A stretch of DNA of 64,000 nt from Actinacidiphila epipremni (lineage in GTDB: Bacteria > Actinomycetota > Actinomycetes > Streptomycetales > Streptomycetaceae), in the NCBI RefSeq assembly GCF_012034175.1, contig NZ_JAATEJ010000009.1, forward strand, positions 62,001 through 126,000, written 5' to 3'. How positions within the stretch are numbered: position 1 is the stretch's first letter; every line of letters begins with the position of its first letter. The translations under genes were made by a program, and so were the position numbers. Positions 8,101 through 26,949 of this stretch are shown here, one piece after another. A model generated the notes under the pieces. The model made no database searches and was not told the DNA's origin. It worked only from the letters and a program-made list of their open reading frames with translations.

Positions 8101-8422
8101 AGGCGGGGTCGGTGGCGATCCGCAGCGCCTCGTCTATGGCGGAGGACGTGAGGTCCGGGTTGAGCCGGGCGACGGCCACGGCGAGTTCGTCGTGGAGGAC
8201 GAGGTCGTGCCAGGCCGTACGGTGGCCGTGGCGCTCCACGCCGGGGGCGATGTCCTTGCCGGAGACGGTGTCCCAGGCGAGCTCCGCGAGGTCTTCGAGG
8301 GCGTACCCCTCCCAGGCGGCTTCCGTGAGCTTGCCGTCTGTTTTGGGGGCGGGCGGGGTCTTTGCCTGGTGCCCGACTCGGGGGGCGTCGCCTTCGCCCT
8401 TGCCGGGCGGGCTGGTCGTCAT
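5105..8422 (-). CDS. hsdR: Type I restriction enzyme, R (motor/nuclease) subunit
   Basis: 1105 residues. The N-terminal nuclease has the PD-(D/E)xK pattern: D174 in RRFDLVLYVNG and E188-x-K190 in VAELK. The SF2 translocase follows, with Walker A TQGAGKS at about 337-343 and the DEAH box (VIVDEAHRSHYD) at about 448, plus helicase motif III-like TGTPISRAD and motif V/VI-like region LTGYDAPPIHTLYMDRP. HsdR binds the M2S methylase and, on unmethylated sites, pumps DNA and cuts at a distance. The gene starts at ATG 8422, overlapping the hsdS stop by ATGA, so S and R are translationally coupled. It is full length and shows no disruption, so the system is probably active. Confidence 0.95.
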   Translation of the reverse strand: MTTSPPGKGEGDAPRVGHQAKTPPAPKTDGKLTEAAWEGYALEDLAELAWDTVSGKDIAPGVERHGHRTAWHDLVLHDELAVAVARLNPDLTSSAIDEALRIATDPASGDAYAENRQAHAHLTTGIRLAYTDEFGAEQTPTVRLVDFNNPIANTYLAANQVTLRDSEGRHRRFDLVLYVNGLPLAVAELKSAADEKATLKDAHAQLQTYLAEFPLAFRYNVLCLLSDGITAKYGTIFTSYEHYAPWNVDDDGVRVDTDAPEYDGLEALSIAVHGLFNQPRFLSLTRNFVNFTPPKPGEPLSGKRIAKPHQYFAVTKAVEKIVEASRSNGQAGVVWHTQGAGKSEEMVETSSLVSRHPALNNPTIVVVTDRNDLDDQLYDTFQDSRILLGQDPLQVTTREQLRSELSARTVGGIVFTTLQKFGLSQEEKQAGTAHPLLSDRRNILVIVDEAHRSHYDSLDGYARHLRDALPYATLIAFTGTPISRADADTRAVFGEYIDVYDLKRAVDDEATVRVFHEPRVIDVSLPPGVDPDTIDEQANALTEGMDDAERRRAVQYAATMNTVYGAPDRIATLADDLIAHWEQRRALMEPDIGCHGKAMVVCATREICVKVFDALAERRPDWASDKVDEGVMKIVFHGERTDPEHLRKHALRKSEQKTVQGRARNPDDPLELLIVHSMLLTGYDAPPIHTLYMDRPMQGANLMQALARVNRRFRAKQDGLLVGYAPLTDNLKKALHDYSDQDREDKTLGADIDRAITEVKNELAALRGMLAGVPWREALADTSHPRPRLRALGLATEYLRSPHTPGNRVEPGEVPLSTRFKDRAARLDRFYRVCAMSKEIAERCEDLEDWRADVAFFSEVRAWMVKKDAADREAAGQPLTAEVRRYLEALAASVVDADDITDLYEEAGIGRLDITRLNDAALHKLENSETPHLVAEALRRLIEQKMREVTKHNVVRHESFSERLDALMKRYMLQQLTSAQVIAELAAMAREVSEEARRGERFDPPLNHAELAFYDAVAHRDMAELMAGGDETLAAIARALVADIRKNLSVDWLSREPVRAKLRTRIRRVLAMFDYPPEEEREAVDLVLKQMETFAAQWAPGAKGA

Positions 8423-9705
8423 ACCGCGTCCTCCACGATGCGCTCGGCGTCCCGGACGCGGAGCTTGCCGGACATGAGTTGGGGGAGGAGGGTGTCCCGA
8501 AGGGCGGCGAGGGTGCGGGATTCCCTCAGGCTGTGGCCGATCAGCTCAAACAGTGGAGAAGCCTCGGAAGCCCAGGCGTTGAGTCGTTCGGGCGTCGGTG
8601 TTGCAACTTCTAGGTGTGCCACAACTCGCCTGTTGATGTGCTGCTGCGCCCCACCAGTACCGTGCTTCGTCAGATCCGTAGCACGACTTCGGACCTCGCA
8701 GAAAAGCCAGTCGTTGAGTTCTCTGGATTCGGCCCAGACACCTGCGACATTCTGACTGCCACCCGCAGGAATCTCGAGCCGAGAGATGCGACCCATGGTT
8801 GCCCCGGTGATGCCGATAATCACAGTATGCGGCGGCATGACTTTCACGGAGCTACCTTTTAGTCCAAGTTCAGCGATGCGCTCACTCGGCTCAATAATCC
8901 GGATTTCGTTCGCTTTCCCCGAGTTGATCCAATTGATTGTTCCAGCCTCCCAAAACTCGGGCTTTCCCCTGCTGGGGGTCCCCCCCACCACCACGCTCGC
9001 AAGTTGATCAAGGCGGCAACTACTCACCAAACCACGTGCAACTTCTTGCCGATGCAGAGAGCGCAGGAGTTCGTCGGCACCCGAAGAAATGCGCTCGTTG
9101 ACCGCGATCTTGTCGTCCAGCGCCCCGAGGACGCCCACGATAGCGTCCTGCTCTTCACGCTCAGGGACGCAAACGTGAAATGCCTTCGCTTCAGGGAAGT
9201 AAACGGTCTGGTGGGTCGTCCCGTGCGCAAAACGCCGCACCGAATCCTGCTCCGAGAGGAGAATGTAGTTCAGGTACCTGGAAGAAATTTCGTCGCCGCA
9301 CACCCAGTTGACGAAATCCTGGCTCGTCGCCATGGGCACGCCCATCGTGACCACGTAGCCAACGGAAGCGGTCCGGGAAAGGCAGACCGTTCCCTCCGGA
9401 AGCACGCGCGCGGAGGAATTGGCAATACCTTCGTCAGTTACGTACTGAAATGTCGATGTGAGCGTGCGCCCGTGGTTCGCCGTTGCATCCTTGATACCGA
9501 GCCACGGAACGTCCCCGCCCCAATATTCCGGCTTCCTGCGACTCGGCGTATGCCCGCTCTCCAGCCTTGCGAGGTCTGACAGCTTGACCCATCGAAACCC
9601 GGGCGCCGTGGGCGTCTTTGGGTCTCCAACGCTGAGAGCCCAGCGCCCGGGAATGACGCCGGTGGTGGCCTCTCGACCACCTGTGGTTGTGATAGTCCTA
9701 GCCAT
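8419..9705 (-). CDS. hsdS: Type I restriction enzyme, S (specificity) subunit
   Basis: 428 residues with two target-recognition domains. The first starts around WVKLSDLARLESGHTPSR (about 40-60) and the second around LDQLASVVVGGTPSRGKPEFW (about 230-250), each followed by a helical spacer; the repeat of the G-x-T-P-S-R motif marks the domain duplication typical of HsdS. It dictates the bipartite sequence methylated and cut. The start ATG 9705 overlaps the hsdM stop by 8 bases. The DNA between about 8,620 and 9,450 is visibly less GC-rich than its surroundings, in keeping with frequent exchange of recognition domains. Confidence 0.93.
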   Translation of the reverse strand: MARTITTTGGREATTGVIPGRWALSVGDPKTPTAPGFRWVKLSDLARLESGHTPSRRKPEYWGGDVPWLGIKDATANHGRTLTSTFQYVTDEGIANSSARVLPEGTVCLSRTASVGYVVTMGVPMATSQDFVNWVCGDEISSRYLNYILLSEQDSVRRFAHGTTHQTVYFPEAKAFHVCVPEREEQDAIVGVLGALDDKIAVNERISSGADELLRSLHRQEVARGLVSSCRLDQLASVVVGGTPSRGKPEFWEAGTINWINSGKANEIRIIEPSERIAELGLKGSSVKVMPPHTVIIGITGATMGRISRLEIPAGGSQNVAGVWAESRELNDWLFCEVRSRATDLTKHGTGGAQQHINRRVVAHLEVATPTPERLNAWASEASPLFELIGHSLRESRTLAALRDTLLPQLMSGKLRVRDAERIVEDAV

Positions 9706-11332
9706 CGACCCTCCCCAACTGCTCCCGTACCACCGCGTCCAGCCGGGCGGACTCGTCCAACTGCGCGAAAAGTTCCTTCGTCAGCCGGGCGATACGCTCA
9801 CCCACCGGCTCCGCGTCCGGGTCCTCCTCCTCGACCGCCGCGCCCACGTACCGGCCCGGCGTCAGGACGAAGTCGTGCTTCGCGATTTCCTCCAGCGTCG
9901 CGCTGTAGCAGAAACCGGGCACGTCCTCGTACGAAAGGCCCTTCTCACGCGCCGACTTCGTGCCACGCCACGCGTGATACGTGTCGGCGACTTTCGCCAG
10001 GTCCTCCTCCGTCAGGACGCGCTCCGTACGATCAACCATCGTGCCCAGCGCCCGCGCGTCGATGAAGAGGACCCGGCTGCGTCGGTCCTCCAACGCCTTC
10101 GCGCCCTGCGGTGATTTGTCCTTCGTCAGGAACCACAGACACGCCGGGATCGCCGTCGTCCGGAAGAGGTTGCCCGGCAGCGCGACCATGCACGCCACCA
10201 AGTCCGCCTCGACCATCGCCGCCCGGATCTCGCCCTCACCGCTCTGCTTCGAGGACATGGAGCCGTTCGAGAGCACGACGCCGGCGCTCCCCCGGTCCCC
10301 GAGCTTGCTCACGATGTGCTGGAGCCATGCATAGTTCGCGTTGGACTGCGGCGGCACCCCGTATCGCCACCGCCGGTCGTCGGACTTTCTCGCCCAGTCC
10401 GACATGTTGAACGGCGGATTCGCCATCACGAAGTCGGCCTGCAGGTCGGGCAGCTTGTCGTCCGCGAAGGTGTCGGCCCATCGGTCGCCGACGCCCTTGG
10501 GGTCCATCCCGTGGATGGCCAGGTTCATCTTCGCCAGCCGCCACGTGCGCTCGTTGGCCTCCTGGCCGTAGATCGCGAGGTCGTGCGTGTGGTCCTGGCC
10601 GCGGCGGCGGGCGACGAACTTGCCGCTCTGGACGAACATGCCGCCCGAGCCGCACGCGGGGTCGTAGACGCGGCCCTCGTACGGCTCCAGGACCTCCACG
10701 ATGAGGCGGACGACGCTCGCCGGGGTGTAGAACTCGCCGGCGCGCTTGCCCTCGGCGCGGGCGAAGCGCTCAAGGAAGTACTCGTAGACCTCGCCCAGCA
10801 CATCCTGGGCGGGGCGGTCGCCGTGGCCGGTGAAGCGGGCGTCACTGATGAGGTCGACCAGTTCCTTGAGGCGCTGCTGGTCGACGTTGTCGCGGTTGAA
10901 GATCTTCGGGAGGACGCCGGTGAGGGCCTTGTTGGCCTTCATCACCTCGTCCATCGCCGTGTCCAGGAGGCTGCCGACGCCGCCTTCCGCGCTGGCCGCG
11001 TTGCCGGCAATGTGGTCCCAGCGGGCCGTCGCGGGCACCCAGAAGACGTTCTTCTCGGTGTACTCGTCCTTGTCCTCAAGGAAGGCCGCCCGGCGATGCT
11101 CGGGGATCTGAGCGAGCTCCGGGTCGGCGGCCAGCTCCTCCCGGCGTTCGGCGAAGGCGTCCGAGACGTACTTCAGGAAGACCAGGCCGAGTACGAACTC
11201 CTTGTACTGAGCGGCGTCCATCGAACCGCGGAGCTTGTCCGCGGCTTTCCACAGGATGTCCTGGATCTCCTTGGTGCTGGAGACGCCGGGCAGTTCGCCC
11301 TGTCCGGCGGCGGCGCGCTTGCGCGGGGGCAT
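9698..11332 (-). CDS. hsdM: Type I restriction enzyme, M (methylase) subunit
   Basis: 544 residues, normal length for HsdM. An N-terminal helical HsdM_N domain (about 20-170) precedes the Rossmann methyltransferase fold with the S-adenosylmethionine loop DPACGSGG at 224-231 and catalytic NPPF at 305-308. It methylates adenine N6 in the site chosen by HsdS. It is followed directly by overlapping hsdS, and preceded 40 bases upstream by the 720-residue pseudo-methylase on the same strand, so all four genes may form one transcript. Confidence 0.95.
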   Translation of the reverse strand: MPPRKRAAAGQGELPGVSSTKEIQDILWKAADKLRGSMDAAQYKEFVLGLVFLKYVSDAFAERREELAADPELAQIPEHRRAAFLEDKDEYTEKNVFWVPATARWDHIAGNAASAEGGVGSLLDTAMDEVMKANKALTGVLPKIFNRDNVDQQRLKELVDLISDARFTGHGDRPAQDVLGEVYEYFLERFARAEGKRAGEFYTPASVVRLIVEVLEPYEGRVYDPACGSGGMFVQSGKFVARRRGQDHTHDLAIYGQEANERTWRLAKMNLAIHGMDPKGVGDRWADTFADDKLPDLQADFVMANPPFNMSDWARKSDDRRWRYGVPPQSNANYAWLQHIVSKLGDRGSAGVVLSNGSMSSKQSGEGEIRAAMVEADLVACMVALPGNLFRTTAIPACLWFLTKDKSPQGAKALEDRRSRVLFIDARALGTMVDRTERVLTEEDLAKVADTYHAWRGTKSAREKGLSYEDVPGFCYSATLEEIAKHDFVLTPGRYVGAAVEEEDPDAEPVGERIARLTKELFAQLDESARLDAVVREQLGRVDG

Positions 11333-11372
11333 CGTTCCTTCTTCCGAGTTCGGTTCCGAGTCAGTGATCGCG

Positions 11373-13535
11373 TTACGTAGTCACGTGGGTGGGGGCCGAG
11401 CCGACGGTCAAGGTGCCGTCGGCCAAGCCCGCTATCGTCAGCCGGCGGGCCTCCGCCAGCGCGTCGGCCTGTGCGCGCAGCAACTGTTCCCGGCGCTCGG
11501 CCTCGGCCAGCAGCGCGTCGAAGCGCAGCACTTCGTCCGGATCGAGGTCGGGGAGCTGATAGTCCTCAATGCGCCGGGCTGCGCGTACGGCGCCGGGGCT
11601 GCGGGCGGTGCCACGGGCAGCGCCGAGCAGGGCGGCCAGCACCCGGGGGGTGAGCGGGCGGGCGGTTTCGCGGTTGAGGCGGAGGATGCGGGCGGGGAAG
11701 GCGACGACGGAGAAGCCGTCGTGGTCGACGTACAGCCCGAGGCGAGGGGCGAGGGTGTACACGATGTCACCCGGCTCGGTGAGCGCCGCTCGCTCGTACT
11801 CCGTGGCCAGCACCAGGCGGTCGATGCGGCGGCCCCCGACGGGCCGCTCGCCGGTGACCTCCCCGGGGCCGAGGACGGTGTGGTGGCCGTCGGGGACGAG
11901 GTGGGCGGGGTCGACGCGGTGGCCGGGGAGCCGGGTCACCCTGTGGGCCGCGATGAGTCTGCCGAGAGTGGTGCGCGGTGGAAGAGCGTCGCCCCGGCGC
12001 AGGACGGGGCCGCGGTAGGGGCCGCGCTGCTTCTCGTACGCGCGGGCCTCGGCGGTCGCGCGCTCCAGGCGTGCCTCGGCCTCGGCGATGAGGGCGGGGC
12101 GTTCGGCGACCTCCGTGGACCAGAAGACGGGCAGCGGCGGCGCGGGCGGGGTGAGCGGGCCGCGGAAGGCCCGATCCAAGTCGGCGACGGGGACGACGCG
12201 GCCGTACCTGGGGTCGTGGCCGTCGCGGCGCAGTCCCTCGGCACGCCAGAGGAGTACGTCCTCGGCGAGCCGCGTGCTGACATGAGGAGTGAGCGGCTCG
12301 GCGCGGATGTCGGCGAGGAGAACCTTGCCGACCGCCTGATGGACGGGGCCGCGGGTGAGCGTCCACAGAGCGGGTCGGTAGCCGGGGCGGAACGGCAGGA
12401 CGCCGCCGGGGAGCGCGATGACCGACTCGACGATGTTCTCCCGCAGCAGAGCGGTGCGCAGTTGTGCGGCCTCGGTGCTCTTCAGCTCGTCGACGAGCGC
12501 GTCGGCCGGCCCGAGGACGACGGCCGTGCAGCCGGGCCGCAGGAGGTACGCGACCCGCTCCAGCTCGGTCAGGGCGGCGATCACCGAGCGGTCCTCACCG
12601 GGGCGGTAGGGGAGCTGGGTGACGACGAGGTCCGGGTCGGCGAAGCGCTCCTCCAGATCGGTGCCGGTCTGCACGTCGAGGTTGAGTTCTTCGACGCCCG
12701 CCAGCAGCAGACGCCGGCGGGTGATGCGAGTGAGCCGGTCGTCGGGGTCTGCCGCGAGGACGGTGAGGAGGTCGCGTTCCTCGGAATCGGCGATGACGGC
12801 GGCGAGCAGGTCGCCGGCACGGGCGTTCGGGTCGGCGAGGGTGACACGCGCGCCTTCCCCGAGGCGAGCGCGCAGGTCGGTGAGCCGGCCGAGGAGGTTC
12901 CGAAGTTCCGGGGTGACCGAGTCGGCGGTGAGGATGTCGAGCCCGAGCCGGGAACGGGCGGCGAGCAGCCACTCGTACGCGCCGTGCTCGCTGTAGGCGG
13001 CCTCGACCAGTTCCTCGGCGAGGTGGGCGAGAGCAGCGCCATCGGCGGGAGTCGCCTCGGCGTTGATGGTCCGCAGCTCGCGGAGGACGTACTCGTCCTC
13101 GACGTCGATACGTTCGGCCCGGCGGAGGACGCCGGCCCAGAGGTCCGCGTCGCCCGCTTCGGTCTCGGGGTCAATGAGCGGCCGGTCGTCGAGACGGCGC
13201 AGGCACAGCAGGCTGCCGACCGTCTCGACGAGCTGCCACGCCGTGAAGCGCTCGCGCAGGGCGATGATGCCGAAGAGGGCCAGCTCTGACCGGAGCTCCG
13301 CCGGGGCTGCGTTGCCGAGACCGGAGGCGATCAGCCACTCGGCCACCTGGGCGCCGTCGAACAGCGGCCGCCCCGAGCTCTCGGACACGGCGGCGGGGAA
13401 GTCCGGATGGCGCCGGCGCCAGGTGGACACGACCGGGCGCTTCACATGGGCGAAAGCGGCGATGTCGGTCATCGAGACCAGGAGTGGCAGAGGCGGCGTG
13501 GGACGGAGCGACGGCTCCGGCAGCTCAGTGACCAT
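11373..13535 (-). CDS. HTH protein with degenerate N6-adenine methyltransferase domain
   Basis: 720 residues from ATG 13535, with AAGGAGG 7 bases upstream. Residues about 20-70 form a helix-turn-helix (MTDIAAFAHVKRPVVSTWRR) as in standalone actinomycete N-6 DNA methylases. The following domain has the layout of such an enzyme but key residues are lost: where DPxxGSG should bind cofactor there is DPNARAGD (235-242), and the catalytic NPPY is replaced by QLPY (307-310). The C-terminal half resembles HsdM/HsdS-type helical and recognition regions and ends with a coiled segment. It is therefore probably unable to methylate and may serve in DNA recognition or regulation for the adjacent hsdMSR. 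The frame is intact and long, so this is not a simple pseudogene. Confidence 0.75.
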   Translation of the reverse strand: MVTELPEPSLRPTPPLPLLVSMTDIAAFAHVKRPVVSTWRRRHPDFPAAVSESSGRPLFDGAQVAEWLIASGLGNAAPAELRSELALFGIIALRERFTAWQLVETVGSLLCLRRLDDRPLIDPETEAGDADLWAGVLRRAERIDVEDEYVLRELRTINAEATPADGAALAHLAEELVEAAYSEHGAYEWLLAARSRLGLDILTADSVTPELRNLLGRLTDLRARLGEGARVTLADPNARAGDLLAAVIADSEERDLLTVLAADPDDRLTRITRRRLLLAGVEELNLDVQTGTDLEERFADPDLVVTQLPYRPGEDRSVIAALTELERVAYLLRPGCTAVVLGPADALVDELKSTEAAQLRTALLRENIVESVIALPGGVLPFRPGYRPALWTLTRGPVHQAVGKVLLADIRAEPLTPHVSTRLAEDVLLWRAEGLRRDGHDPRYGRVVPVADLDRAFRGPLTPPAPPLPVFWSTEVAERPALIAEAEARLERATAEARAYEKQRGPYRGPVLRRGDALPPRTTLGRLIAAHRVTRLPGHRVDPAHLVPDGHHTVLGPGEVTGERPVGGRRIDRLVLATEYERAALTEPGDIVYTLAPRLGLYVDHDGFSVVAFPARILRLNRETARPLTPRVLAALLGAARGTARSPGAVRAARRIEDYQLPDLDPDEVLRFDALLAEAERREQLLRAQADALAEARRLTIAGLADGTLTVGSAPTHVTT

Positions 13536-13831: not shown

Positions 13832-15364
13832 ATGGATGAAGGCACGGTCTCCGTCATCGGGGACGGCCATGCCCCGGGGCTGGTGGACGGTCCGGAGTGG
13901 AGCCTTCCGGGACTGGACGTAGCCGCCGGCCGGTATCCGCTTTCGGTGGAGCGGCATGTAATGGCCATGGCCGATCACCTGGTCCCCGGGGTGACCACGG
14001 TGACACCGCACGGGCGCTACTACGCGCTGCACGGACTGATCGCGGCACAAGCCGACGCCGAGGACCTGACGGTCCCCGAGGCCCAGTCGTTGCTGCGCCG
14101 CGCCGAAGTGGCATTGGCCGCCGTATCGTTCGCGCACCATCCGCAGACTCTGGAATGGCTGCCGCGGGCTCACGGGACGGACGCCCTGGCTCGGCGGCTG
14201 CACGCCGGGACGCTCACCATGTCCGAGGCCGAGGCCCCCGGCAAGGACGGTTACGTCGGTAGCCGGTGGGGGTTCTGGGGACCGTACAACGGCTCCGAGA
14301 TCGCACTCGGCATCCTCGCTCCCGGGCCCATGCCAGCTCCCGGACCGCGGCTGGAAACGGCCGCGGTACGTACGGGGCTGGACGGGCTGCTGGAGTTGGC
14401 CCGCGCGGACACGCTGCCGGTGGACAGCCTGACGTCTTTCGGCGACCGGCTGTGCGTATGCGCGGGCGGTGAGCGTGCTGACGGTGAGTGGCTCGCGAAG
14501 GTGATGTGCGAGCCCGCTGAGCCGGCGGAAACGGGCTCCCGCTCGACGACGCGACGGCAGACGATCCAGCTTCTGGCTCGAGTGGTCACCGAACATCCCG
14601 AGCGGATCCGGCGTTTCACCCGTGACATCGGACCTGTGCTCGCCTTCGGTGACTTCCTCACTTCGGATTCCGTGACGAGCGGCATCGACACGGCCGCCGC
14701 CTGGCGAGGAGTGGTGCTGCGCAACTACTCGGTCGGCGCGTGGCGCCGCCTGTGGTCCTGGCTCGTCGCGCAGGTCGACGGACTGCTGCCGATCGAGGAA
14801 GTGGCTGACCGCTTCGCTGCGGAACTACCGGACACCACGGTGGACGCCTTCCTGTCCGCACTCCCCGCAACGCAGAGCATGACCGGTGCCCCGCTGCCCG
14901 CCGAGGACGAACTGCGGAAAACCAAAGACAGTCCCTTGCCCCTCACCGAACTACGAGTGCTCGCCGTCGGTGCACGCCGGGTCGACGAACTCTCCGGCAG
15001 GGTCCGTGACGCGTTCCTCGGCCGGCGCGGAGTCGAACTCGGACCGGAGTGGACGCAGCGGAGGCTTGACGAAGCCCGGCCCATGAAGCTGCACGACTTT
15101 GCCCGCCGGATCACCCATGACCTGGTGGCGCGGTCGCAGCGGATCGCGCGCGCCAAAGCCCGCCGGCGCCCCGACGGCACCTTGTGGCTGCCGACCCGAC
15201 TGCACGAGCGCGGCGGGCTGCTGTACAGGACGAGCCAGGAGGGGCGCGGCGACGTCGGCCTGCGGCTGGACCAGCTCGGAACCGTTCTGGCCACCTGCGG
15301 TGTACTGCGCTACGACGGCGGTAGTTGGTCGGTAACTGACAGGGGGAGGGCTCTCCTTGGCTGA
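13832..15364 (+). CDS. Unrecognised 510-aa protein coupled to PLD-like protein
   Basis: The start ATG 13832 has no clear ribosome site. I do not recognise the family. The protein looks soluble and multidomain: an N-terminal half (about 1-210) with a conserved-looking RWGFWGPYNGSE segment, a middle helical region, and a C-terminal winged-helix-like end (GLRLDQLGTVLATCGVLRYDGGSWSVTDRGRALL) that could bind nucleic acid. Its stop overlaps the next gene by 8 bases (15,357-15,364), so the two products are very likely made together and act together. The position between a type I restriction operon and Wadjet makes a defence role plausible. Confidence 0.7.
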   Translation: MDEGTVSVIGDGHAPGLVDGPEWSLPGLDVAAGRYPLSVERHVMAMADHLVPGVTTVTPHGRYYALHGLIAAQADAEDLTVPEAQSLLRRAEVALAAVSFAHHPQTLEWLPRAHGTDALARRLHAGTLTMSEAEAPGKDGYVGSRWGFWGPYNGSEIALGILAPGPMPAPGPRLETAAVRTGLDGLLELARADTLPVDSLTSFGDRLCVCAGGERADGEWLAKVMCEPAEPAETGSRSTTRRQTIQLLARVVTEHPERIRRFTRDIGPVLAFGDFLTSDSVTSGIDTAAAWRGVVLRNYSVGAWRRLWSWLVAQVDGLLPIEEVADRFAAELPDTTVDAFLSALPATQSMTGAPLPAEDELRKTKDSPLPLTELRVLAVGARRVDELSGRVRDAFLGRRGVELGPEWTQRRLDEARPMKLHDFARRITHDLVARSQRIARAKARRRPDGTLWLPTRLHERGGLLYRTSQEGRGDVGLRLDQLGTVLATCGVLRYDGGSWSVTDRGRALLG

Positions 15365-18068
15365 GAACGTTCCAACACCGAAATCAGTGAGGGGACCGAA
15401 CGCCTTCGCCTCACCGCTGACGCTCATCCTTGAGAAAGAGCAGGAGGGCGGACAACCCCTGCGAGAAGCCCTCTTCCTGAGTTTCACAGCCGATCTCGGA
15501 TTCTTCGAGGATGTCGCCCTCGGCGTCACCCAGGCAACCGGCGCGCTCGTGACGGTGGTGGGAGACGTCCCCATGGCTCGCGCAGACGCCCGGTCCGTCC
15601 GGCGGGCCGGCCGCAGCTACCTCCCCGGTCATGCATACGCTCACGGTGCCGCCTTCCACCCCAAGTTGATGGTCCTCGCCGGACCGGATCACGCCACCGT
15701 CGCTCTCGGCTCGGGTAACACCACGCTGGCCGGCTGGCAGGCCAACTCCGAGCTGTGGACCGTTCTGCGGGTGGACGGCGAACAGAGCCCCGCCGCGGTG
15801 CCGGACCTGGCGGCATGGCTTCGTGGCCTGCCGGAGAGAGTACGGTTCTCCGCCGGCGTGCCGGACGCGCTGGGACGGGTGGCAGCGCTGTTGGACCGAC
15901 TCCATCGCGACAGGGAACCTGCGGAACCCCAGGTCCGCCTGGTCAGCAGTCTTCGCACACCCATCGTCGATCAGCTGCCGCACGGGCCCGTTGACGAACT
16001 GGCCGTCTTCGCGCCCTTCCACGACCGGCGGTCAAAGGCGCTCCGGAGATTGCTAAAGCGCTTTCGTCCCGGCCGGTTCACCCTTGCCTACCAGCCCGGG
16101 CTCACCGATCTCGACGGACCGTCGATCGCCGACCTGGTGAAGGAGTACGACGGCCACATCATCAGCGACAACGGCGAGCGGTACCGGCACGGAAAGCTCA
16201 TCGAGTGGACCTCCGGCGGGCAGCGGTGGGCCCTGACCGGCAGCCCGAACATCTCCGCCGCCGCCCTGCTCCTCTCCCAGGCCGAGGGCGGCAACTGCGA
16301 ACTCGGCCTCATCAGCCCGGTCCCCACCACGCTCCTTCCGGACGGCACCGACGAGCCCGTCTCCCGGCTGCGCTCGGCCGCACGGCTCCCCCGTCCCCCG
16401 GTCCGCACCGTTCCGCTGCTGCTGGGTGCCCTGCGCGTACCGGACGGCCTGGAGATCAGCCTGGCCCGTCCCCTCCTCGACGCCGCACACCTGGAGATTT
16501 CCCCGGTCGCCGCGCCGCCGGAGACCTGGGAGCGCATCACCGAAATCCCACCAGGCCAGGACACACTGACAGTGACCGCTGCAGCGGACGCGGGCAGCCG
16601 TGTGCGCCTGGTCGTCGTCGACGGCGGGGGCGTACCGACGTTCGGCAACATCGTGTTCGTCGTCGACCCCGAAGCAGTGCTGCACCGAGTGGCCTCCAGG
16701 CGGCCGCACGCCCCCACAACGCAGCCCCTGGAGCTGTTCACGGACCCGCTGCTCGCTGAGCGGTTCCTCAGTGACTTGGAAGCGCTCCGTGCGGTGCTGG
16801 GGCCGGGTCCGGCAGCAGCCTCGGCGAGCAGCCGTAGTGGCGCGCCTGTGACATCGTCGCTGAGCAGCGCCGGGGACGGCTGGGAGCGCTATCTGGACGA
16901 ATGCGCCGGACGCGTCGGGAACGCGCTCCTGCGCTTCGCCGTAGGACTGCCCCCGGATGTCGGCGCTCCCCTCCAGGACCTCCTGTCCGTCTCCTGGGAC
17001 GATGAGGCCACGAACGACATCGAAGCCGCCCTCGAAGGAGACGACGCGGAGAGCGTGGCAGCGGATCACGACCCGGTGATGGCCGACGCCGAGGTGACCG
17101 CCACCACGCTGCCCGATCTCCGGAAGGCCGACGAGGAGGTACGCCGCAGGTACCGGCGCGTAGTGGAACGCATGGTGCCTCCCGCTCCCCAGTGGAGCCG
17201 TGAGAAGGAAAGCACCGTAGCCCCCGGCCCCAGGCGGGGCCCGGTGGACAGCCTGCTCGTCGTCCGGCTGACGCTGTGGATCATCGCGGCGGGCGCCTGG
17301 CCTCCCCGGCACACGGGCTGGGTCCCCCTGCTCTCCCGCGCTGTCCTTGCGCTGGCCCCGTCCGATCACCAGGCCGGTGTCCCGGAGACGTTCGAACCCC
17401 AGGTCGGCAGCCTCGCAGCGGTCGCCCTCGCCGTGCTCAGAAGCCATGCCCCACGCTACGAGACCACCCCTGAGACCGCGGCCTTCAACGAAGCCTCACG
17501 TGCCCTACGCCATCTGCTTTCCGCTATGGATGGCGCGTACGTCGCGGAATACACGAGGCTGCTCGACAGAGGCTCCGGCCCGTCCGTCACCGAGGCGGCC
17601 GTACTCGACGTCGCGTCGGACATCGTCCAGGACGATCCGCTCGCCGACGCGATGTGGTCCCTCACCGAGAAGGGCCGCGAGGCCCACCGTGACGGGCCGC
17701 TTCTGCTTCACATCCCCGGCAGCTTCACAAACCCGGCGCTGGTCGCACTCCAGGCAGTCGGCGCTGCCGAAGACGCTCCCCTGGTCGGAGCCTGGGCCGG
17801 CTCCACCGGCAGCGCTTGGGCTCTGGTCGTCTGGCGACGGCCCGACCTCATCGTGGTCGATGCCAAGGGGACCTCACCCCTCTGGAAGCACCACCGTCTC
17901 ACCGGCTTGGTCGGCCCCAAGGCCCTCGCCTCACAGCCAAATCCCGGCTCGGCCCCCTCCGTCTCCCACGGCCCCCGCAACCGGCCCTTCGAACTGGCCC
18001 AGCAAGTCCTGCTGGAGCTTGGGCTGAGCGGGCCCCTCCCACCGCGGTGTGAGTCTCATCCGTGGTGA
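15357..18068 (+). CDS. Phospholipase-D-superfamily protein, 903 aa
   Basis: Two HKD-type half-sites are visible: FHPKLMVL followed by GSGNTTLAGW (His about 100), and RHGKLIEW followed by TGSPNISAAAL (His about 278). Paired HxK/N motifs of this spacing are the active site of PLD-family nucleases and phosphodiesterases. The remaining 600 residues include a beta-rich middle (about 340-470) and a helical C-terminal region ending with a conserved-looking VVDAKGTSPLWKHHRL; I do not recognise them. The gene overlaps the upstream 510-aa gene by 8 bases. PLD nucleases occur in defence systems such as DISARM (DrmC), but no DISARM helicase is present here, so this pair is something else. Confidence 0.75.
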   Translation: MAENVPTPKSVRGPNAFASPLTLILEKEQEGGQPLREALFLSFTADLGFFEDVALGVTQATGALVTVVGDVPMARADARSVRRAGRSYLPGHAYAHGAAFHPKLMVLAGPDHATVALGSGNTTLAGWQANSELWTVLRVDGEQSPAAVPDLAAWLRGLPERVRFSAGVPDALGRVAALLDRLHRDREPAEPQVRLVSSLRTPIVDQLPHGPVDELAVFAPFHDRRSKALRRLLKRFRPGRFTLAYQPGLTDLDGPSIADLVKEYDGHIISDNGERYRHGKLIEWTSGGQRWALTGSPNISAAALLLSQAEGGNCELGLISPVPTTLLPDGTDEPVSRLRSAARLPRPPVRTVPLLLGALRVPDGLEISLARPLLDAAHLEISPVAAPPETWERITEIPPGQDTLTVTAAADAGSRVRLVVVDGGGVPTFGNIVFVVDPEAVLHRVASRRPHAPTTQPLELFTDPLLAERFLSDLEALRAVLGPGPAAASASSRSGAPVTSSLSSAGDGWERYLDECAGRVGNALLRFAVGLPPDVGAPLQDLLSVSWDDEATNDIEAALEGDDAESVAADHDPVMADAEVTATTLPDLRKADEEVRRRYRRVVERMVPPAPQWSREKESTVAPGPRRGPVDSLLVVRLTLWIIAAGAWPPRHTGWVPLLSRAVLALAPSDHQAGVPETFEPQVGSLAAVALAVLRSHAPRYETTPETAAFNEASRALRHLLSAMDGAYVAEYTRLLDRGSGPSVTEAAVLDVASDIVQDDPLADAMWSLTEKGREAHRDGPLLLHIPGSFTNPALVALQAVGAAEDAPLVGAWAGSTGSAWALVVWRRPDLIVVDAKGTSPLWKHHRLTGLVGPKALASQPNPGSAPSVSHGPRNRPFELAQQVLLELGLSGPLPPRCESHPW

Positions 18069-18369
18069 CGTGACGACCTCGATGAGCCTCGTCGACGCCG
18101 ACCACGCCGAGGTCCACCGCCCGACATGGCGTCGGGCACTCTCGCGGTCGCACGTGGAACGCGTGACCGAGCAGATCGCCGACGCCGCCATTGACCTTCT
18201 CAATTGGTCAGGGCGCAGCCGAAGACATCCAGCGGAGGGAAGACTGCCGCTGGGCCGACGGGCCGCGGAGCGGAGACGCCTGGGCAACCCCCCGTCGCAC
18301 GAGCAGGAAGCGCGGGGATTTCGGTCGAAGCGCCTGCCCGTGTCACTGGTGGTGCGTAGCCTCGTCCGC
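18069..18369. other. Gap before jetA, 301 bp
   Basis: An open frame continues through this stretch into jetA (from 18,049), but its sequence is Arg-rich and unlike JetA, so I do not count it as coding. A TAGCCT hexamer ends 7 bases before the chosen jetA ATG, the spacing expected for a leaderless transcript, and no ribosome site precedes that ATG. No matching -35 is evident. Confidence 0.35.
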
Positions 18370-20007
18370 ATGGAGGAACCGTCACAAGAGGCCCCTACGG
18401 TACGAGCCGAACGCGACGGGGTGTGGCAGCGGTTGACGGCGTACGCCTATCTGAGCGCGCCCGAGCGGCTTGAGTACATGGCGATCATGCGGGTCTTCTG
18501 CGGGACCCTGCTGGCCGACCTGGCCGTACCGGACGTACGGGAGAGGCTCGCCGCTGCCGACGGGCCAGGGGCGGCGCTGGACGCCGACACGCTCGCCACA
18601 CGGCTGGATCAGCTGGTCAGGTGGGGCAATCTCCTTCCGAGTACGCACACGGTCAAAGCGTCCAGCATCACCGAGTACCAGCGGGCGCGGTCCCGCTACC
18701 AGCTCTCGAAGCTGGGCGAGCGCATCCAGCGGGACGCCGACGAGGTTCTCGCCAGTGCGGACGCGGCGCGTGAGGTCAGCAGCGAACTGCTGGCGCTCGT
18801 CGAACGCGGGCTGCGGGATCTCGTCGAGTCAGTGGTCCGGCCGGGCGGCGCAGAGCCGCAGGACGCGCTGGAACGCGTCAGCACCCTTTTCGTACAGTTC
18901 GCGGAGTTCGCCGACTCCATAAGGGACTTCTACGCCTACCTGGGCCAGGTGCTGGCCCGGTACGACCTGGACACCGCCGAATACCAGGGCTTCAAGGAGC
19001 TGCTGCTCGACTACGTCGAGGCCATCACCGAGGACGTGTCCTTCCGTGCGCCACGGATCGCGGCGGCGCTGGACCGGCTGTGGCCGCACCTTCCCGGCCT
19101 GCTGAAGCAGCTCGACGCCCACAGCCAGGGGCTCTCGGGCGTCCCGGCCGGCGCGGGCGGGGAGTCCGCGACCCGAGTCCAGCGCAGCCGCGGCCGTGAG
19201 ACGGCGGACTGGGAGGGACTGCGGGGCTGGTTCACCGACATGGAGGGGCGAGGGAGCCAGGTCGATCAGCTCCGCGACGCCACGTTGCGTGCGCTGCAGT
19301 CGTTGCTCGCCAATGCCAAGCGGATGCTGCGCTCCGCCTCGGGCGAGATGTCGCGGCGGAAGGACCTGTTGCGGCTGGCCCGCTGGTTCGACGAAGCTGC
19401 TCCGGAGGACGCGCACGACATCGCGGTCGCCGCCTTCGGTCTGTACGGTGCCCGGCACCTGGGGATCCCGCCGACGGCCGACGAGGGGGTGCCCGCGTAC
19501 ACGAGCTGGTGGACGGGCCCGGTCGTCGAGGTGCCGGTGGCCCTCCGGGAGCGGGGGTCGCGCGCGCAGCGGGGCAGGGCCTCGGCGGTGGAGGACCACT
19601 CGGCGCAGAAGCAGAGGCTGGCGGAGGCCGCCCGCTCCCAAGCAGAGGCCAGACGTGCCGCCGCGGAGGAGTTGCGGAGTGCTTCCGGTCGCTTCGCACA
19701 GCTGCGGCTGACCTCGGCCGCTCTGTCGCTGCTGCTGGAGCTGCTGGCCACGGCCCTGGGCAACGCCCGGATACGCCGGGCCGGGAACAGCGCCGCGGAG
19801 GGCCCGGGACAGGACCGCGGCTTCGCGGTGGACGGCGCCAGCAGCGAGGACGCGGAGCTGGGGATCCGTCTCACCGTTCGCCGGGTGGACGGCTTCGACA
19901 CCCTGCTGCACTCGGCCGACGGCGACCTCACACTCGACGGCCTGGAGTTGTCGGTGGTGGGCGTCGCCGACGGTGCTTCCGTCGAGACGCGGGCAAGCGC
20001 CTCATGA
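18370..20007 (+). CDS. jetA: Wadjet type II protein JetA (kleisin-like, DUF2397/TIGR02677)
   Basis: About 545 residues from ATG 18370, chosen because family members begin shortly before the motif LTAYAYLSAPERLEYMAIMRVF seen here at about 20-40. The N-terminal winged-helix region is followed by long helices and a coiled-coil-rich C-terminal third, as expected for the MukF/kleisin-like subunit that bridges the JetC ATPase heads. It opens a four-gene operon in which each stop overlaps the next start (ATGA at 20,004). Wadjet is an SMC complex that extrudes DNA and cleaves small circular DNA such as plasmids. The family call comes from sequence recognition together with the unmistakable operon order. 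Confidence 0.9.
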   Translation: MEEPSQEAPTVRAERDGVWQRLTAYAYLSAPERLEYMAIMRVFCGTLLADLAVPDVRERLAAADGPGAALDADTLATRLDQLVRWGNLLPSTHTVKASSITEYQRARSRYQLSKLGERIQRDADEVLASADAAREVSSELLALVERGLRDLVESVVRPGGAEPQDALERVSTLFVQFAEFADSIRDFYAYLGQVLARYDLDTAEYQGFKELLLDYVEAITEDVSFRAPRIAAALDRLWPHLPGLLKQLDAHSQGLSGVPAGAGGESATRVQRSRGRETADWEGLRGWFTDMEGRGSQVDQLRDATLRALQSLLANAKRMLRSASGEMSRRKDLLRLARWFDEAAPEDAHDIAVAAFGLYGARHLGIPPTADEGVPAYTSWWTGPVVEVPVALRERGSRAQRGRASAVEDHSAQKQRLAEAARSQAEARRAAAEELRSASGRFAQLRLTSAALSLLLELLATALGNARIRRAGNSAAEGPGQDRGFAVDGASSEDAELGIRLTVRRVDGFDTLLHSADGDLTLDGLELSVVGVADGASVETRASAS

Positions 20008-21329
20008 CCCTCCCCTCAGCTCACGATGTGGCCCTCGCGGCCGAGCGCCGCAGCGCGGGACGGCTGTTGCTCGCCCATCCGCTGGTGACCGCGGACGGTC
20101 CCCACGCCGACCTCTTCCCCCTCATCCGCCGCCACGCCGACTGGCTCGCACAGCGTTTCCAGCAAGTGCTCGGGTACTGGCTGCTCGTCGACACCTCCTA
20201 CGCCCGGCTGTTCAAGGCGGGCCTGGGGCGGGGTGCGGGGCACCGGTTGCAGCGGTCCAGCGGCGTTCCCTTCACCCCGCGCACCTACGCCTGCCTGGCC
20301 CTCGCCCTGTCGGTGCTGGTGACGGCACCCGAGCAGATGCTGCTGTCCCAGCTCGTCGCCGATATCAAGGCGGCGGCGGCCGACGCCGGCATGGAGTGGG
20401 AGGACGCCGGCAGGGCCACCGGCAAACGTACGTTGAGCGCAGCCCTCCGGCAGTTGGTCGTCTGGGGAGTGCTCGCTGAGACGGAGGGGAGCGTCGGGGC
20501 CGTCGAGCAGGAGGACGGCGGCGAGGCATTGATCTCGGTCGACCGGGAGAGGGCCCGAGCGGTGGTCGCCGGCCCGCTCACGCAGAGCGCGAGCGGGGCC
20601 GACCTCGTACGACGGGCGGCCGACCCGGGCTTCGGCGGGCCGCGCACGTACGTGCGGCGCATGCTCGTGGAGACCCCCGTCGTCCATCTCGACGAGCTGA
20701 CCGACGCCGAACGCGACTGGCTGCGTACCCGGCAGCGCCGTGAGGCCCAGGCGTTCTCCGAACTGCTGGGCTTGGAGACGGAGATCCGGGCCGAGGGCGC
20801 CGCCCTGGTGGACCCGGAGGACGAACTGTCGGACCTGGACTTCCCCGGGAGCGGAACGGTCGCGCAGGCCGCCCTGCTCGCGCTGGGTGAACTCGTCGAG
20901 AGGCTGCGTCCCGACCGGCCCGGTCATCCCGCGACCGGTGGCCGCCTCGTCATCGGCGTAGCGATCCCCGACGGGCTGATCGACGAGATCCTGGTGGAAG
21001 TCGTCGCTTCGTACGGGCGGCGCAGCAACTGGAAACGCGAACTCGTGGACGACCCGCAGGCCCTGGGTGCGGCGGTGGTGGACCTGCTCGTCCGGATGCG
21101 GCTCCTGGCTCGTGACGGCGTGCTGCGGTCCCAAGGCGCCGGCCTCCCCGACGGCTACGACGATGCCGTGCCCGAGGGCCGGCCGGTGACCGACGTGTCC
21201 GGTGCGCGGGCTTCCGGCAGCGGCCTGGTGCTCCTGGCCGCCGCCGCCAGGTACGCCGCCCAGGTCACCCTGCGGCCCGCCCAGCGAGCGGCAGCCGCCA
21301 CCGACGAACGGCAGGAGCCTCTTTCATGA
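20004..21329 (+). CDS. jetB: Wadjet type II protein JetB (MukE-like, DUF2398/TIGR02678)
   Basis: 441 residues from ATG 20004, which overlaps the jetA stop (ATGA); the frame is open further upstream but only inside jetA. The start region (ERRSAGRLLLAHPLVTADGPHADLFPLIRRH) and the FKAGLGR segment near residue 70 match the DUF2398 family. It carries winged-helix-like regions and corresponds to the MukE-like accessory subunit that binds JetA. The stop TGA 21327-21329 overlaps the jetC ATG. Confidence 0.9.
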   Translation: MTLPSAHDVALAAERRSAGRLLLAHPLVTADGPHADLFPLIRRHADWLAQRFQQVLGYWLLVDTSYARLFKAGLGRGAGHRLQRSSGVPFTPRTYACLALALSVLVTAPEQMLLSQLVADIKAAAADAGMEWEDAGRATGKRTLSAALRQLVVWGVLAETEGSVGAVEQEDGGEALISVDRERARAVVAGPLTQSASGADLVRRAADPGFGGPRTYVRRMLVETPVVHLDELTDAERDWLRTRQRREAQAFSELLGLETEIRAEGAALVDPEDELSDLDFPGSGTVAQAALLALGELVERLRPDRPGHPATGGRLVIGVAIPDGLIDEILVEVVASYGRRSNWKRELVDDPQALGAAVVDLLVRMRLLARDGVLRSQGAGLPDGYDDAVPEGRPVTDVSGARASGSGLVLLAAAARYAAQVTLRPAQRAAAATDERQEPLS

Positions 21330-24300
21330 CCGCCGACCTCCCCACGGTCCCCGCCCCGCGCCGGGCTCCGGCGACCGCCGCACGCCGGTTCCGGCTGCAC
21401 CGGGCCGGCATCCGCAACGTGTGGCAGTACGACGAGCAGGATTTCGCCTTCGGCGACGGCAGGTTGCTGCTGCGCGGCAAGAACGGCGCGGGCAAGTCCA
21501 AGGCACTGGAGATGCTGCTGCCCTACCTGCTCGACGGCGACGCCCGTGCGCTCGACGCGACCGGCACGGGCCGCACCACGCTCGTCTGGCTGATGCTGGA
21601 CGGCGTCGAGCAGACCAACCGCATGGGGTACCTCTGGGTCGAGTTCCGCAGGCCGGCGGACGAGACCGGAGGTGAGGAGGAGTTCCTGACCCTGGGTGCG
21701 GCGATCCGGGCATCGAAGTCCACCGGCAAGGCCGTCCCGGCCTTCTTCGTCACGCCGCTCCGGGTGGGCGAGAACCTGCATCTGGTGGAAGCGGGCCGGC
21801 CCTTGCCGCTGGAGAAGCTGAAGGAGTACGTCGGCACCGGGAATGTGACGGAACGGGCGGTCGAGCACCGTGCCCGGGTCGCCCGCGACCTGTTCGGGAT
21901 CACCGATACGACCCGCTTCCGCAACCTCACCCAGCTCCTCCACCGGCTGCGCCGGCCGACTGTGGGCGACCGCATCGAATCCGGCGGACTCGTCACCCTG
22001 CTGAGCGAGACACTGCCCGGGTTGGACGACGAGGTCGTGGAGAAGGTCGCCCGCAACCTGCATGACCTCGACGCCGTCCGGAGCGAGCTGGGCAGGCTCG
22101 AAAGGACGGACGCGGCGCTGCGCACCTTCCTCGACGACTACCGCGGATATCTGTCCGGCGTCCTGCGCAGGGCCTCCCAAAGGGTGCTCGGCGAGCTGGA
22201 CGTGCTCGCGGAATGGCGCAGAAAGGCCGGGGACGCGGCCAAGGAGGTCAGCGCGCTGCGGGAGGCGGAAAGGCTGGCCGTGCAACAGGTGACGGGCATC
22301 TCGGAGGAACAGGAGGCTGCCCAGGACGAGCTCGCCGCGTTGCAGAGCAGCGACGGCTACCGCAGCGTGCAGGAGCTGTCGGAGCGCCGCACGACCGTCC
22401 GGGCACTGCACACCGCGGCCGTGACGTCGTACTCGGCCCTGGTGTCAACCCACCGGGCCGAACAGGGCGCCGCGGAGCGACTGGCCGGCGAGCTCCGGCA
22501 GTCGGCGGACCGTCTGAAGGACATCGCCTCCGACCACCGGGAACTGCTGTCGGACGCCGAGAAGGCCGGACTGCCCGCCGCCCACCTCGGTGAGGCCGTC
22601 TCACCGCGGCAGACCGAGCTCGACGGACCGCGCACCGTCGAGGTGACCGACCCCGACGGCGGGCACCACTCCATGCGCCACGCACGTGTCGCCGCCATCG
22701 ACACCGTCGCGACGGCGGCTGCGCTGGACGCATGGCACCAGCAGCTGGAGGCGGGCAGGATCGTCGCCGCCCACCGCTCGCGCGCGGTCGCCGAGGTCCA
22801 GCGGCTCTTCGCCGAGGCCCGCAAGGCACGCACCGAAGCAGCCGGCGCGGACGCGGAGCGGGAGCGCCACGAGCAGGACCTCCAGGAGACCGCTGCACGG
22901 CAGGAGGCGGCCCGCACGCACGTGGAGGCGGAGAGCAGCACATACCGGGAGGAGGTCGCGGGGTGGGCGGAGCGGCTGGGCACCGCACTCGGACCCGACT
23001 GCCCCGCCCTGGACGAGATCCTGGCCCTGACCGCGCTCGACCCGGATCCCGACGCCGCATTCGCGGATCGGACCTTGCCTGCGGAGATCGACGCCCAGGC
23101 CGCCGAGGCCGCCCACACAACCCTCACCCCGTACGCCGGCCGGCTTTCCGGTGAGCGCGACCGCCTCGCCGTCGAGGCTCGGCAATCGCGCGCCACGCTC
23201 AACAACCTGGCCGAGCAGCGGCGCCAATGGGAACGGCTGCCCGACCCCACTCCCCCGCCCCCACCGCATCGCCGCGCCGCGCGGCAGGAGGGGACGGGGG
23301 CGCCCTTCTACCGGCTGGTCGACTTCGCGGACGGGCTCTCCGACACCCAGCAGGCCCACCTCGAAGCCGCACTCCAGGCGAGCGGGCTGCTGGACGCGTG
23401 GGTCACCGCGGACGGGGCCGTTTTCGACGCCCGCACGCTGGACACCCTCCTCGAACCCCACGCTGCGGCGGTCGAGGGCCCGAGCCTCGCGACAGTCCTG
23501 CGTCCGGTGGACGCGAGCGGCACCGGCGTCGCCGTCGAGCGGATCGCGCGCGTGCTGTCGTCGGTCTCCCTGGCACCCGGCAATGACTCTCGTGCCGGAA
23601 GCGCCGTGCACTGGGACGGCAGTTGGCGTCTGGGTGTGCTCAGCGGACGCAGCGAAAAGCCTGCCGCCGAGTTCGTGGGGGCGGCCGTGCGTGCCGAGAC
23701 GCGGCGGCGGCAGCTCGCCGAGCTGGACGCCCGGATTGCCGAGGTGAGCGGCCGGCTTTCCGACGTCCAGGAACAACTGGAGGGTGTCGACCGCCGCCGC
23801 GCGGCCCTCGACCGCGCCCTGCGGCGCTTCCCGCCATCCCGGCGGCTCTACGACGCGTGGGCGGAGGCCGCCGCAAAGGACGCCGCGGCACGGGAGTTGA
23901 CCGGAAAGGTGTCGGCGGCTGCACGCAAGGCGGACGACGCGCGCACCGCCGCGGTGAGAGCCCGTACGGTGGCCGAGGCCGCGGCCACCGCGAACGACCT
24001 GCCGACCGACACCGAGGCCCTGGCCCGTACCGCCACCGCCCTCACCGTGGTGCTCAGCGCGCTCGGACGGCTGGCCAGGACCGTCCACCGTGCGTCCGCG
24101 TCGCTCGGCGAGGGGCAGACCGCCCGGGCGACCTACAGCAGCGCGCGTGAGGACCGCCTCGGCGCCGAGGCGGACTACCGGTCCCGGATGGACGAACTGC
24201 GTCCCGCCCGTGCCCGCCTGGCGACGCTGGAGGAGACGGTCGGCGCGTCCGAGAGCGAGATCCTGGCCCGCGAGGAAGCCGTCACGTCGCGGATCAAGGC

Positions 24301-25564: not shown

Positions 25565-26823
25565 ACACGATGCCCGCCGAGACGCGTGCCTGGCTCACCG
25601 GGCCAGGTCTCCAGCGGCTGTGGACCGCCCTGCGCGCCCGCCTGGAGCGCAACGGCCTTCAGGCGACCGGCACGCTCAGGCTGACCGGTCTCGATGTCCC
25701 CGAGCGGACGGCCCTGTCGCAGCTCCTGGGCAGGACCCTCACCGGCGCGGAGGCCACCATACGGCTCGCCGAGCTCGACACCCGCCTTCGCGCTTCGGCC
25801 GCCGGAGCCGGCCTGGTGGCCGTCGTCCAAGCTCTCGGACCGCCCCTGACCGACCGGCGGGCGGCGCGTGCGGACGCCGACGCACGCCGCGATCAGGTCT
25901 GGTCTGCCCTGTCCGACGCGCTGAGCGCTTCGCCGCTGGCCGGCGAGGCGTGGGCGCACCAGTGGTACGACGGGCTCCGGCGGGCGGGCGTACCGCGCGG
26001 AGTGAGTCCCGACACCGCGATCCGCAGCCTCCACCAGGCTCTCCACGTCCTCGTCCTGCTTCTCGGCCCGGGGAGAGGAGCCGTACGCGGCAGGGGCGAG
26101 GTCGCGACCGAGGCGACGGGGTCGGCGCACGGACTGGACGACGGTACCTGGCTCTCCCGGCTCGTCCAGCGTGGTGTGGCGCTCGCCCACGGCACCGAAC
26201 TCCCCGCGGACGCTGCGGGCCGGCGAGCCCTCTGGCGGTTGGCCGGCGTCACACCGGACGAGATCTCCAGCACCGTCATCGTCTACGGACTGCGCCCCAA
26301 AGGCACCGGCTGGCGCGAGCACGCCCTACGGGACCGGGCGGACCACCACACCGAGACGCACCTGACACTCCGCGACCTGCACTCCATGGAGTTGGCCATG
26401 CCGCCCGGCACACTCATCCGTATCTGCGAGAACCCCAGAGTGCTGGAAGCAGCCGCGGACGCGGCGTGCACGCAGCCTCTCGTCTGCACCTCGGGAAGCG
26501 CCTCCACGGCCGTCACCACGCTGCTCGACGCCCTCACCGCCACAGGTTGCCGCTTCGCCTACCACGGCGACTTCGACTGGCCCGGCATCGCCCTCGCCAA
26601 CCGCGTCATCCACCGTTACGACGCGGCCCCGTGGCGCTTCCAGGCCGAGGACTACGAGCGGCTCGCCGCGCGCGCCCAAGCGATGGGCATCCCGCAGCTC
26701 CCGCTCTCGGACCTGCCCGTCGACGCGCACTGGGATTCCTCCCTCGGACCCACCATGGAGGCGCTGGGCATCGCCCTCCACGAAGAGGCCACCCTCGACC
26801 TACTGGTGGAAGACCTGCGCTGA
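25561..26823 (+). CDS. jetD: Wadjet type II protein JetD (toprim nuclease, DUF2399/TIGR02679)
   Basis: 420 residues from ATG 25561, overlapping the jetC stop (ATGA); the longer open frame lies inside jetC and is discarded. The C-terminal toprim-like domain shows the acidic motif HGDFDWPGIALANRV (about 334-348), whose D-x-D should hold the metal used for DNA cleavage, as in topoisomerase VI-related nucleases. The N-terminal part is helical and winged-helix-like. JetD is the subunit that cuts the DNA trapped by JetABC. Its intact acidic motif suggests a working system. Confidence 0.92.
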   Translation: MNTMPAETRAWLTGPGLQRLWTALRARLERNGLQATGTLRLTGLDVPERTALSQLLGRTLTGAEATIRLAELDTRLRASAAGAGLVAVVQALGPPLTDRRAARADADARRDQVWSALSDALSASPLAGEAWAHQWYDGLRRAGVPRGVSPDTAIRSLHQALHVLVLLLGPGRGAVRGRGEVATEATGSAHGLDDGTWLSRLVQRGVALAHGTELPADAAGRRALWRLAGVTPDEISSTVIVYGLRPKGTGWREHALRDRADHHTETHLTLRDLHSMELAMPPGTLIRICENPRVLEAAADAACTQPLVCTSGSASTAVTTLLDALTATGCRFAYHGDFDWPGIALANRVIHRYDAAPWRFQAEDYERLAARAQAMGIPQLPLSDLPVDAHWDSSLGPTMEALGIALHEEATLDLLVEDLR

Positions 26824-26864
26824 GGAGCTGGACCCGATCCGCACGAAGCTTTGATGCCGGACGC

Positions 26865-26933: not shown

Positions 26934-26949
26934 CGAGCCATGATGAAGA

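Follow-up and report, generated by a model that had tools for sequence, protein, structure and literature searches.

The 64,000-nucleotide stretch of Actinacidiphila epipremni DNA analysed here (contig NZ_JAATEJ010000009.1, positions 62,001 to 126,000 of the forward strand; termed the window) encodes two coupled genes, A and B, on its forward strand. With moderate confidence, we read this pair as a self-contained two-gene module that defends against phages or mobile DNA, and as a distant cousin, without the helicase, of the ZacA-ZacB half of Azaca. Azaca (ZacA-ZacB-ZacC) was reportedly described by Millman in 2022. Gene A (13832..15364) encodes a ZacA-like protein of 510 amino acids (aa), which is a putative DNA-recognition partner. 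Gene B (15357..18068) starts at a TTG codon and encodes a ZacB-like phosphodiesterase of 903 aa that belongs to the phospholipase D (PLD) superfamily. The two open reading frames (ORFs) overlap by 8 bp (15357..15364), a segment that joins the TTG start of B to the TGA stop of A, and a GGGAGG stretch lies immediately 5′ of the TTG. A first-pass annotation of the sequence had reported these lengths, coordinates and the overlap, all of which are confirmed, and the identical 8-bp overlap is found in 4 annotated Streptomyces plasmid relatives. The start of gene A is uncertain, because residues 1–30 have a predicted local distance difference test score (pLDDT) below 50 in the AlphaFold2 (AF2) model.

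A and B are inherited together. A genome scan gave 60 loci with flanks of up to 10 kb, all actinobacterial by their titles; this set is biased, because the search patterns were built from an actinobacterial alignment. In 57 of the 60 loci, A or what is left of it lies next to B, and the other three (L037, L088 and L089) start inside B. A is split between frames in one locus (L043), and in another only a remnant of A is left and B is broken (L048). Of the 60 named loci, that of Actinacidiphila bryophytorum is the closest, with identities of 94% for A and 92% for B. Relative to this copy, A has a ratio of nonsynonymous to synonymous substitution rates (dN/dS) of 0.20 and B one of 0.27, and both genes are under purifying selection. 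Because dN/dS is low and A adjoins B so regularly, the pair is not a chance arrangement. Moreover, the distances of A and those of B correlate with r 0.98 over 42 pairs (the window and 41 loci), a value that none of 2000 permutations reached. A simple gene caller, whose starts are unreliable, placed no same-strand gene in the 60 bp below B (53 loci) or in those above A (54 loci). In one clade it puts the start of B 19–22 bp behind A, which is an artefact.

The pair is patchily distributed, and some copies are found on plasmids. B is present in 17 of 293 genomes of the order, the source genome included, and two of these contain pieces only: just 39 residues match B in G048, and B is in pieces in G050. 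The latter copy (L008, L018 and L019) lies in several pieces in different frames, with 58–70% identity, and is apparently decaying. A search from the A side found A in 5 of 296 genomes of the phylum (again including the source genome), with B adjacent in all five; two of these copies are so diverged that A is barely detected. A housekeeping role was rejected on the count of 17 genomes in the order together with the plasmid copies. A phage-borne gene was likewise rejected as an explanation: tblastn with B as the only query found no match in 50,697 phage records, none of 8 pattern matches in viral contigs is a relative, and no PHROG family was found for A, B and four relatives.

The N-terminal region of B is well predicted in its AF2 model (pLDDT 80.7), while the linkers are poor. 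A bilobal PLD domain is predicted to form at residues 16–347 (15402..16397), and the closest solved fold is that of tyrosyl-DNA phosphodiesterase 1 (TDP1). Residues 17–347 match TDP1 with a Z of 23.4, a root-mean-square deviation of 3.3 and 302 aligned positions in the structural comparison tool VIA, and with E 3e-8 in Foldseek. Among the matches listed by VIA, other PLD-fold entries have Z 16–21, including a bacterial PLD (Z 21.0) and PLD3 (Z 20.0). Foldseek also matches the nucleases NgoAVII, SauUSI and BfiI over about 125–140 columns. A sequence search of solved structures with B gave nothing significant, and its best match was TDP1 at E 0.11. Behind the PLD domain, residues 355–436 (16419..16664) are modelled as strands of an all-beta domain that is possibly FN3-like, with a weak Foldseek match to NCAM FN3 (E 0.007).

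B has the two HxK...GSxN halves within a bilobal fold that are expected of the PLD superfamily. The first half (15657..15752) contains H101-P-K103, GSGN121 and N130-x-E132, and the second (16188..16301) contains H278-G-K280, GSPN298 and N313-x-E315. In an alignment of 45 rows, H101, K103 and E132 are conserved in 44, N121 and N298 in 43, and H278, K280 and E315 in all 45; at the first site, one row each has R in place of the first H and A in place of the first K. The aspartate of the HKD motif, also expected of the superfamily, is absent from B at positions 108 and 285. Its place is taken by A, V, I or L in all 45 rows at the first site, D occurs in 1 of 45 rows at the second, and the PLDc_2 match remains below the Pfam cut-off. 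The sites of B are TDP1-like HK-N sites and not intact HKD sites; TDP1 likewise lacks the aspartate of HKD. The two intact HKD-like sites of the first-pass annotation thus stand as to H, K, N and E, which are kept at both, but not as to their being intact. A failure of these pockets to assemble, which it had considered as an outcome, is not what the model suggests at the level of the bilobal fold, which is predicted to form.

Protein A is confidently modelled (pLDDT 89.8, predicted template modelling score (pTM) 0.87) as a helical protein with winged-helix elements. Residues of about 420–510 (15089..15361) are predicted to form a helix, two strand pairs and further helices. This supports the winged-helix-like tail that had been proposed from the sequence, as do an HTH_45 Pfam match at residues 478–510 of a Prevotella relative (L027) and weak matches to winged helices. 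In the VIA rows of A, the DNA-recognition domain of BpuJI comes first (Z 6.0 with 184 aligned), and that of FokI second (Z 5.5 with 194 aligned). The next rows are ribosomal protein S19e, gyrase and FadR, which we take to be winged helices. A sequence search of solved structures with A found nothing significant.

B has its nearest named relative in Azaca, and A has a weak match there. PADLOC at E 0.01 assigns ZacB to 19 of 19 B members (best 6e-17), with PbeA and DrmC models matching a few, and B of the window matches ZacB at 3.5e-9 over residues 136–316. Because the ZacB model also matches many other PLD proteins, a profile comparison with canonical Azaca loci was made. In hhalign, B matches ZacB with a probability of 98% and E 1.2e-13 over 278 columns that include both PLD halves, and a purely actinobacterial alignment gives 96% and E 3e-9. 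The C-terminal half of B is unaligned, and a search of the source genome with the ZacB model at E 0.001 does not report B. For A members, ZacA is the sole PADLOC family (11 of 18 at E 0.01, best 2e-5), and A of the window matches it at E 0.0026. The stretch that A and ZacA have in common lies at residues 45–96 (13964..14119), by PADLOC and a weak hhalign match, and holds LVPGVTTVTPHGRYYAL. In the one canonical Azaca locus checked, ZacA is a DUF6361 protein (1.1e-54) and the third gene encodes a helicase. DUF6361 (PF19888) was detected in none of 44 A members at E 0.01, and the ZacC model has 0 matches in the source genome at E 0.001. Judged by sequence, B is a distant ZacB and A is perhaps a distant ZacA. 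On these grounds the pair is not an Azaca system; it is probably a relative of ZacAB that functions in a similar way. PDC-M27 was rejected as the home family, since at E 1e-10 it matches in 1 of 296 genomes, where the match lies in the B of a diverged A-B pair.

Genes of other defence systems are frequent neighbours of the pair. Labelled defence genes occur in 27 of the 60 loci (26 by cluster or Wadjet labels, and L073), where the labels are PADLOC names of cluster representatives transferred by BLAST cluster, together with Wadjet labels in L066 and L075 and PglX/PglW in L073. The recurrent clusters, by PADLOC, are a type I methylase, a type I restriction enzyme, a DpdE/DrmD-like helicase, a type IIG/DrmMI-like methylase and GajB; two other recurrent neighbours, a 1266-aa protein and an Hsp70-like protein, have no PADLOC match. 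Genes of the HsdR cluster occur in 12 of the 60 loci compared to 0.04 expected, from 45 matches (some of them gene pieces) in 147 genomes of the order at an assumed 8 Mb each. This is a rough control, because the loci are related by descent and some of them fall outside that order. The neighbours vary among loci, and the labelled ones include type I restriction-modification (RM), Wadjet, Gabija and BREX genes and, in one deeper relative, DISARM genes. These labels and the patchy distribution speak against homologues concentrated in housekeeping loci, an outcome that had been held to count against a defence role, although 33 of the 60 loci have no labelled defence gene. Jet genes resembling those of the window occur in 2 of the 60 loci only (L066 and L075), so that the pair is not regarded as belonging to the Wadjet next to it, although this comparison could miss diverged Wadjets.

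Relatives are also found further afield. Plasmid searches found the same gene order on plasmids of Streptomyces, Miltoncostaea and Mycobacterium, and B relatives with an A-sized gene before them occur in Cupriavidus, Roseomonas, Prevotella and Halorussus. Against the actinobacterial A profile, the Prevotella A matches over its full length at E 3.5e-7, the Roseomonas A at E 7e-4, and the Halorussus A at E 0.0075 with a probability of 5%. For the Cupriavidus A, a mixed profile (A2) gives a match at 7e-30, whereas the purely actinobacterial profile A7 gives none at E 0.01. In Prevotella, further genes lie directly before A and overlap B. On the Mycobacterium avium plasmid (L025, 16653–22690), a DNA methyltransferase and then a BPTD_3080-type restriction enzyme follow on the same strand about 45 bp behind B. 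In another locus (L140, 774–14831, forward strand), PglX lies upstream of A-B and a 1291-aa same-strand ORF begins about 42 bp behind B, so that this pair is perhaps inside a type 2 BREX locus. A further locus (L139, 3055–16256, reverse strand) is a DISARM operon of DrmA, DrmB, DrmC, a diverged A, B and a PbeA-like helicase, in which the genes touch or overlap.

A mechanism can be proposed from these features. Given the overlap of their genes, A and B are likely to be co-produced and to be partners in one complex. A would bind DNA through winged-helix elements that, to go by weak structural matches, may be arranged somewhat like the recognition domains of BpuJI and FokI. It would then position or license B, which would be directed to foreign DNA. 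The two HxK...GSxN...E halves of B are predicted to make up one active site, as in TDP1, and B would need neither metal nor ATP to cut DNA, which it would do through a covalent phosphohistidine, as its superfamily suggests. Since the pair has no constant neighbour, whether a methylase, a helicase or another third gene, the host would be spared either through recognition of a foreign feature or through A holding B inactive. It is in this sense that we infer a defence activity for the pair.

Several observations weigh against this interpretation. The 60 loci are not independent, and 33 of them have no labelled defence gene, most of their neighbours being unscanned. Some pairs beyond the 60 loci, namely those of Prevotella, Mycobacterium, L139 and L140, have close same-strand genes, and the diverged A of L139 has no PADLOC family match. 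For B, the overall pTM is just 0.55, 18 of the 19 members also match PDC-M27B (best 4.5e-8), and the ZacB model weakly matches many other PLD proteins, in 57 of 296 genomes, many of them generic PLD. For A, the VIA scores (Z 6) are in the tool's warning range, and Foldseek against the PDB and BFVD gave nothing at E 0.001, an absence that proves nothing, with the top insignificant rows being mostly transporters. In addition, A has no Pfam match at E<=1 and thus no Pfam family, and 5 of 44 A members match Rce1-like, a membrane protease family (best E 0.0016). Finally, hhalign of A with ZacA over the N-terminal motif is weak, at 43% (E 2e-4) and 22% (E 1e-3).

The frequent RM neighbours are open to another explanation, in which the pair is an accessory of the neighbouring RM system, such as a second nuclease or a regulator that needs RM methylation to spare the host. 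This would agree with the position of A, which is divergent from a 720-aa methylase-like gene whose cluster recurs in 9 of the 60 loci. It would also agree with the counts of HsdR and of the type I methylase (15 of 60) and with the methyltransferase and restriction enzyme behind the Mycobacterium plasmid pair. However, 48 of the 60 loci have no HsdR-cluster gene in the fetched flanks, the pair is also found beside Gabija, Wadjet or BREX genes, and no RM gene is listed with it in the fetched stretches of Streptomyces plasmids, whose gene table is incomplete. A role as an RM accessory is rather unlikely on this evidence.

The fold of B admits two other functions. It has been considered that B is a TDP1-like repair or end-processing enzyme, which with A frees DNA 3′ ends of the protein or other adducts left by enzymes of a phage, a plasmid or the host. 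TDP1 is its best match in fold and also, insignificantly, in sequence, and the absent aspartate is the TDP1 pattern. Other bilobal PLD proteins match nearly equally well, however, the nucleases found with Foldseek match too, and a patchy gene that is often beside defence genes makes an unlikely repair enzyme; we regard this explanation as quite improbable. Abortive infection through a target other than DNA, in which infection sensed by A would lead B to cleave phospholipid, nucleotide or RNA, draws on the same fold, which lipid PLDs such as 7e0m (Z 21.0) share. It is very unlikely, given that no lipid-PLD family is among the Pfam and NCBIfam matches of B, that the best structural rows of A are DNA-binding (weakly so), and that ZacB, the nearest named relative, is encoded beside a helicase.

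The pair in the window lies between two defence systems, as the first-pass annotation had stated. On its left, and on the reverse strand (5105..13535), are a type I RM system, with HsdR at 5105–8422, HsdS at 8419–9705 and HsdM at 9698–11332, and the 720-aa methylase-like gene at 11373–13535. This 720-aa protein has a helix-turn-helix-like N-terminus. It may be catalytically dead, because TQLPY replaces the expected NPPY/F in the three copies inspected (window, L030 and L038). On the right, on the forward strand, is a complete type II Wadjet (18049..26823) of JetA (PADLOC E 8e-220), JetB (1.6e-115), JetC (0) and JetD (5.7e-137). The true start of JetA is probably downstream of 18049, because the profile match begins at its residue 119. 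The absence of a DISARM, BREX or CRISPR partner also holds for the part of the window scanned with PADLOC, in that no core protein of these systems was the best hit for any of its 15 translations, one of which (25506–27050) is a wrong-frame ORF. Neither the DrmA helicase nor DrmB is next to the pair, where the adjacent genes are those of the type I RM and Wadjet.

Other genes of the window also resemble defence genes in PADLOC. An AAA ATPase-like protein (2531–5023, reverse strand) adjoins HsdR and is similar to mad3 and LmuB. A type IIG restriction-modification enzyme lies at 36351–39689 (reverse strand, E 1.8e-286), and a helicase similar to Mokosh MkoA/MkoC at 48467–51592 (reverse strand, best E 5e-55). 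A 401-aa protein 3′ of the Wadjet genes (26950–28155, forward strand) has weak matches to pAgo-related models, and it is followed by a ParA-like ORF (28152–29198) named from its KGGVGKTT motif.

A wider claim can be made more tentatively. A and B may possibly represent an undescribed two-gene defence family found across Actinomycetota, Pseudomonadota, Bacteroidota and haloarchaea, in which a recognition partner is joined to a TDP1-type (HK-N) PLD nuclease independent of ATP and methylation. The pair would then be a core module that recurs in Azaca, with a helicase added, and in a DISARM operon, inserted as a unit; we consider this doubtful. No description of the A-B pair was found among the literature matches listed, and an earlier one may exist, for example in preprints. 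The proposal of a new module, made from the sequence alone, is borne out as to a PLD phosphodiesterase and a DNA-binding-like partner that are coupled and often lie in defence islands, but "uncharacterised" and "new" overstate the case, since ZacB is a distant relative of B and ZacA perhaps one of A. If the interpretation is true, a working helicase-free natural version would reduce the Azaca problem to two proteins, with the recognition and cutting parts separated. One would then also have to ask how a nuclease that lacks an ATPase or methylase spares its own genome, and such a version would show a module common to Azaca-like and DISARM loci.

The pair can be compared with several known systems. 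TDP1 and the PLD-type nucleases BfiI, NgoAVII and SauUSI have the PLD fold and the H, K, N and E residues of B, while B has extra all-beta, helical and alpha/beta regions and a constant partner in A. DISARM with DrmC likewise places a PLD nuclease in a defence locus, and in L139 a diverged A-B lies beside DrmC; the DrmC of that locus is a separate gene of 242 aa, however, and the window pair has no adjacent DrmA or DrmB. The part of PMC12839542 (2026) drawn on here describes the BREX protein BrxA and SspB as similar to the DNA-binding domains of FokI and BpuJI. These domains are also the top VIA matches of A, whereas A has no PADLOC match to BrxA or SspB at E 1, and the likeness is through weak fold scores. 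For Azaca, excerpts of the literature place ZacC among the superfamily 1 and 2 (SF1/SF2) helicase proteins (PMC12278908), list a PLD-like domain (PMC10952713), and give the mechanism as not known (PMC10482375, PMC12926258). Compared to Azaca, the pair has no ZacC match in its own genome and, across the 60 loci, no third gene that is constant, A has 510 aa and no DUF6361, and B has 903 aa compared to about 617 in ZacB. What the two have in common is the order of A followed by the PLD gene, the match of B to ZacB over both PLD halves, and the motif PG(V/T)(T/S)T..T..RY(Y/F), which A and ZacA share.

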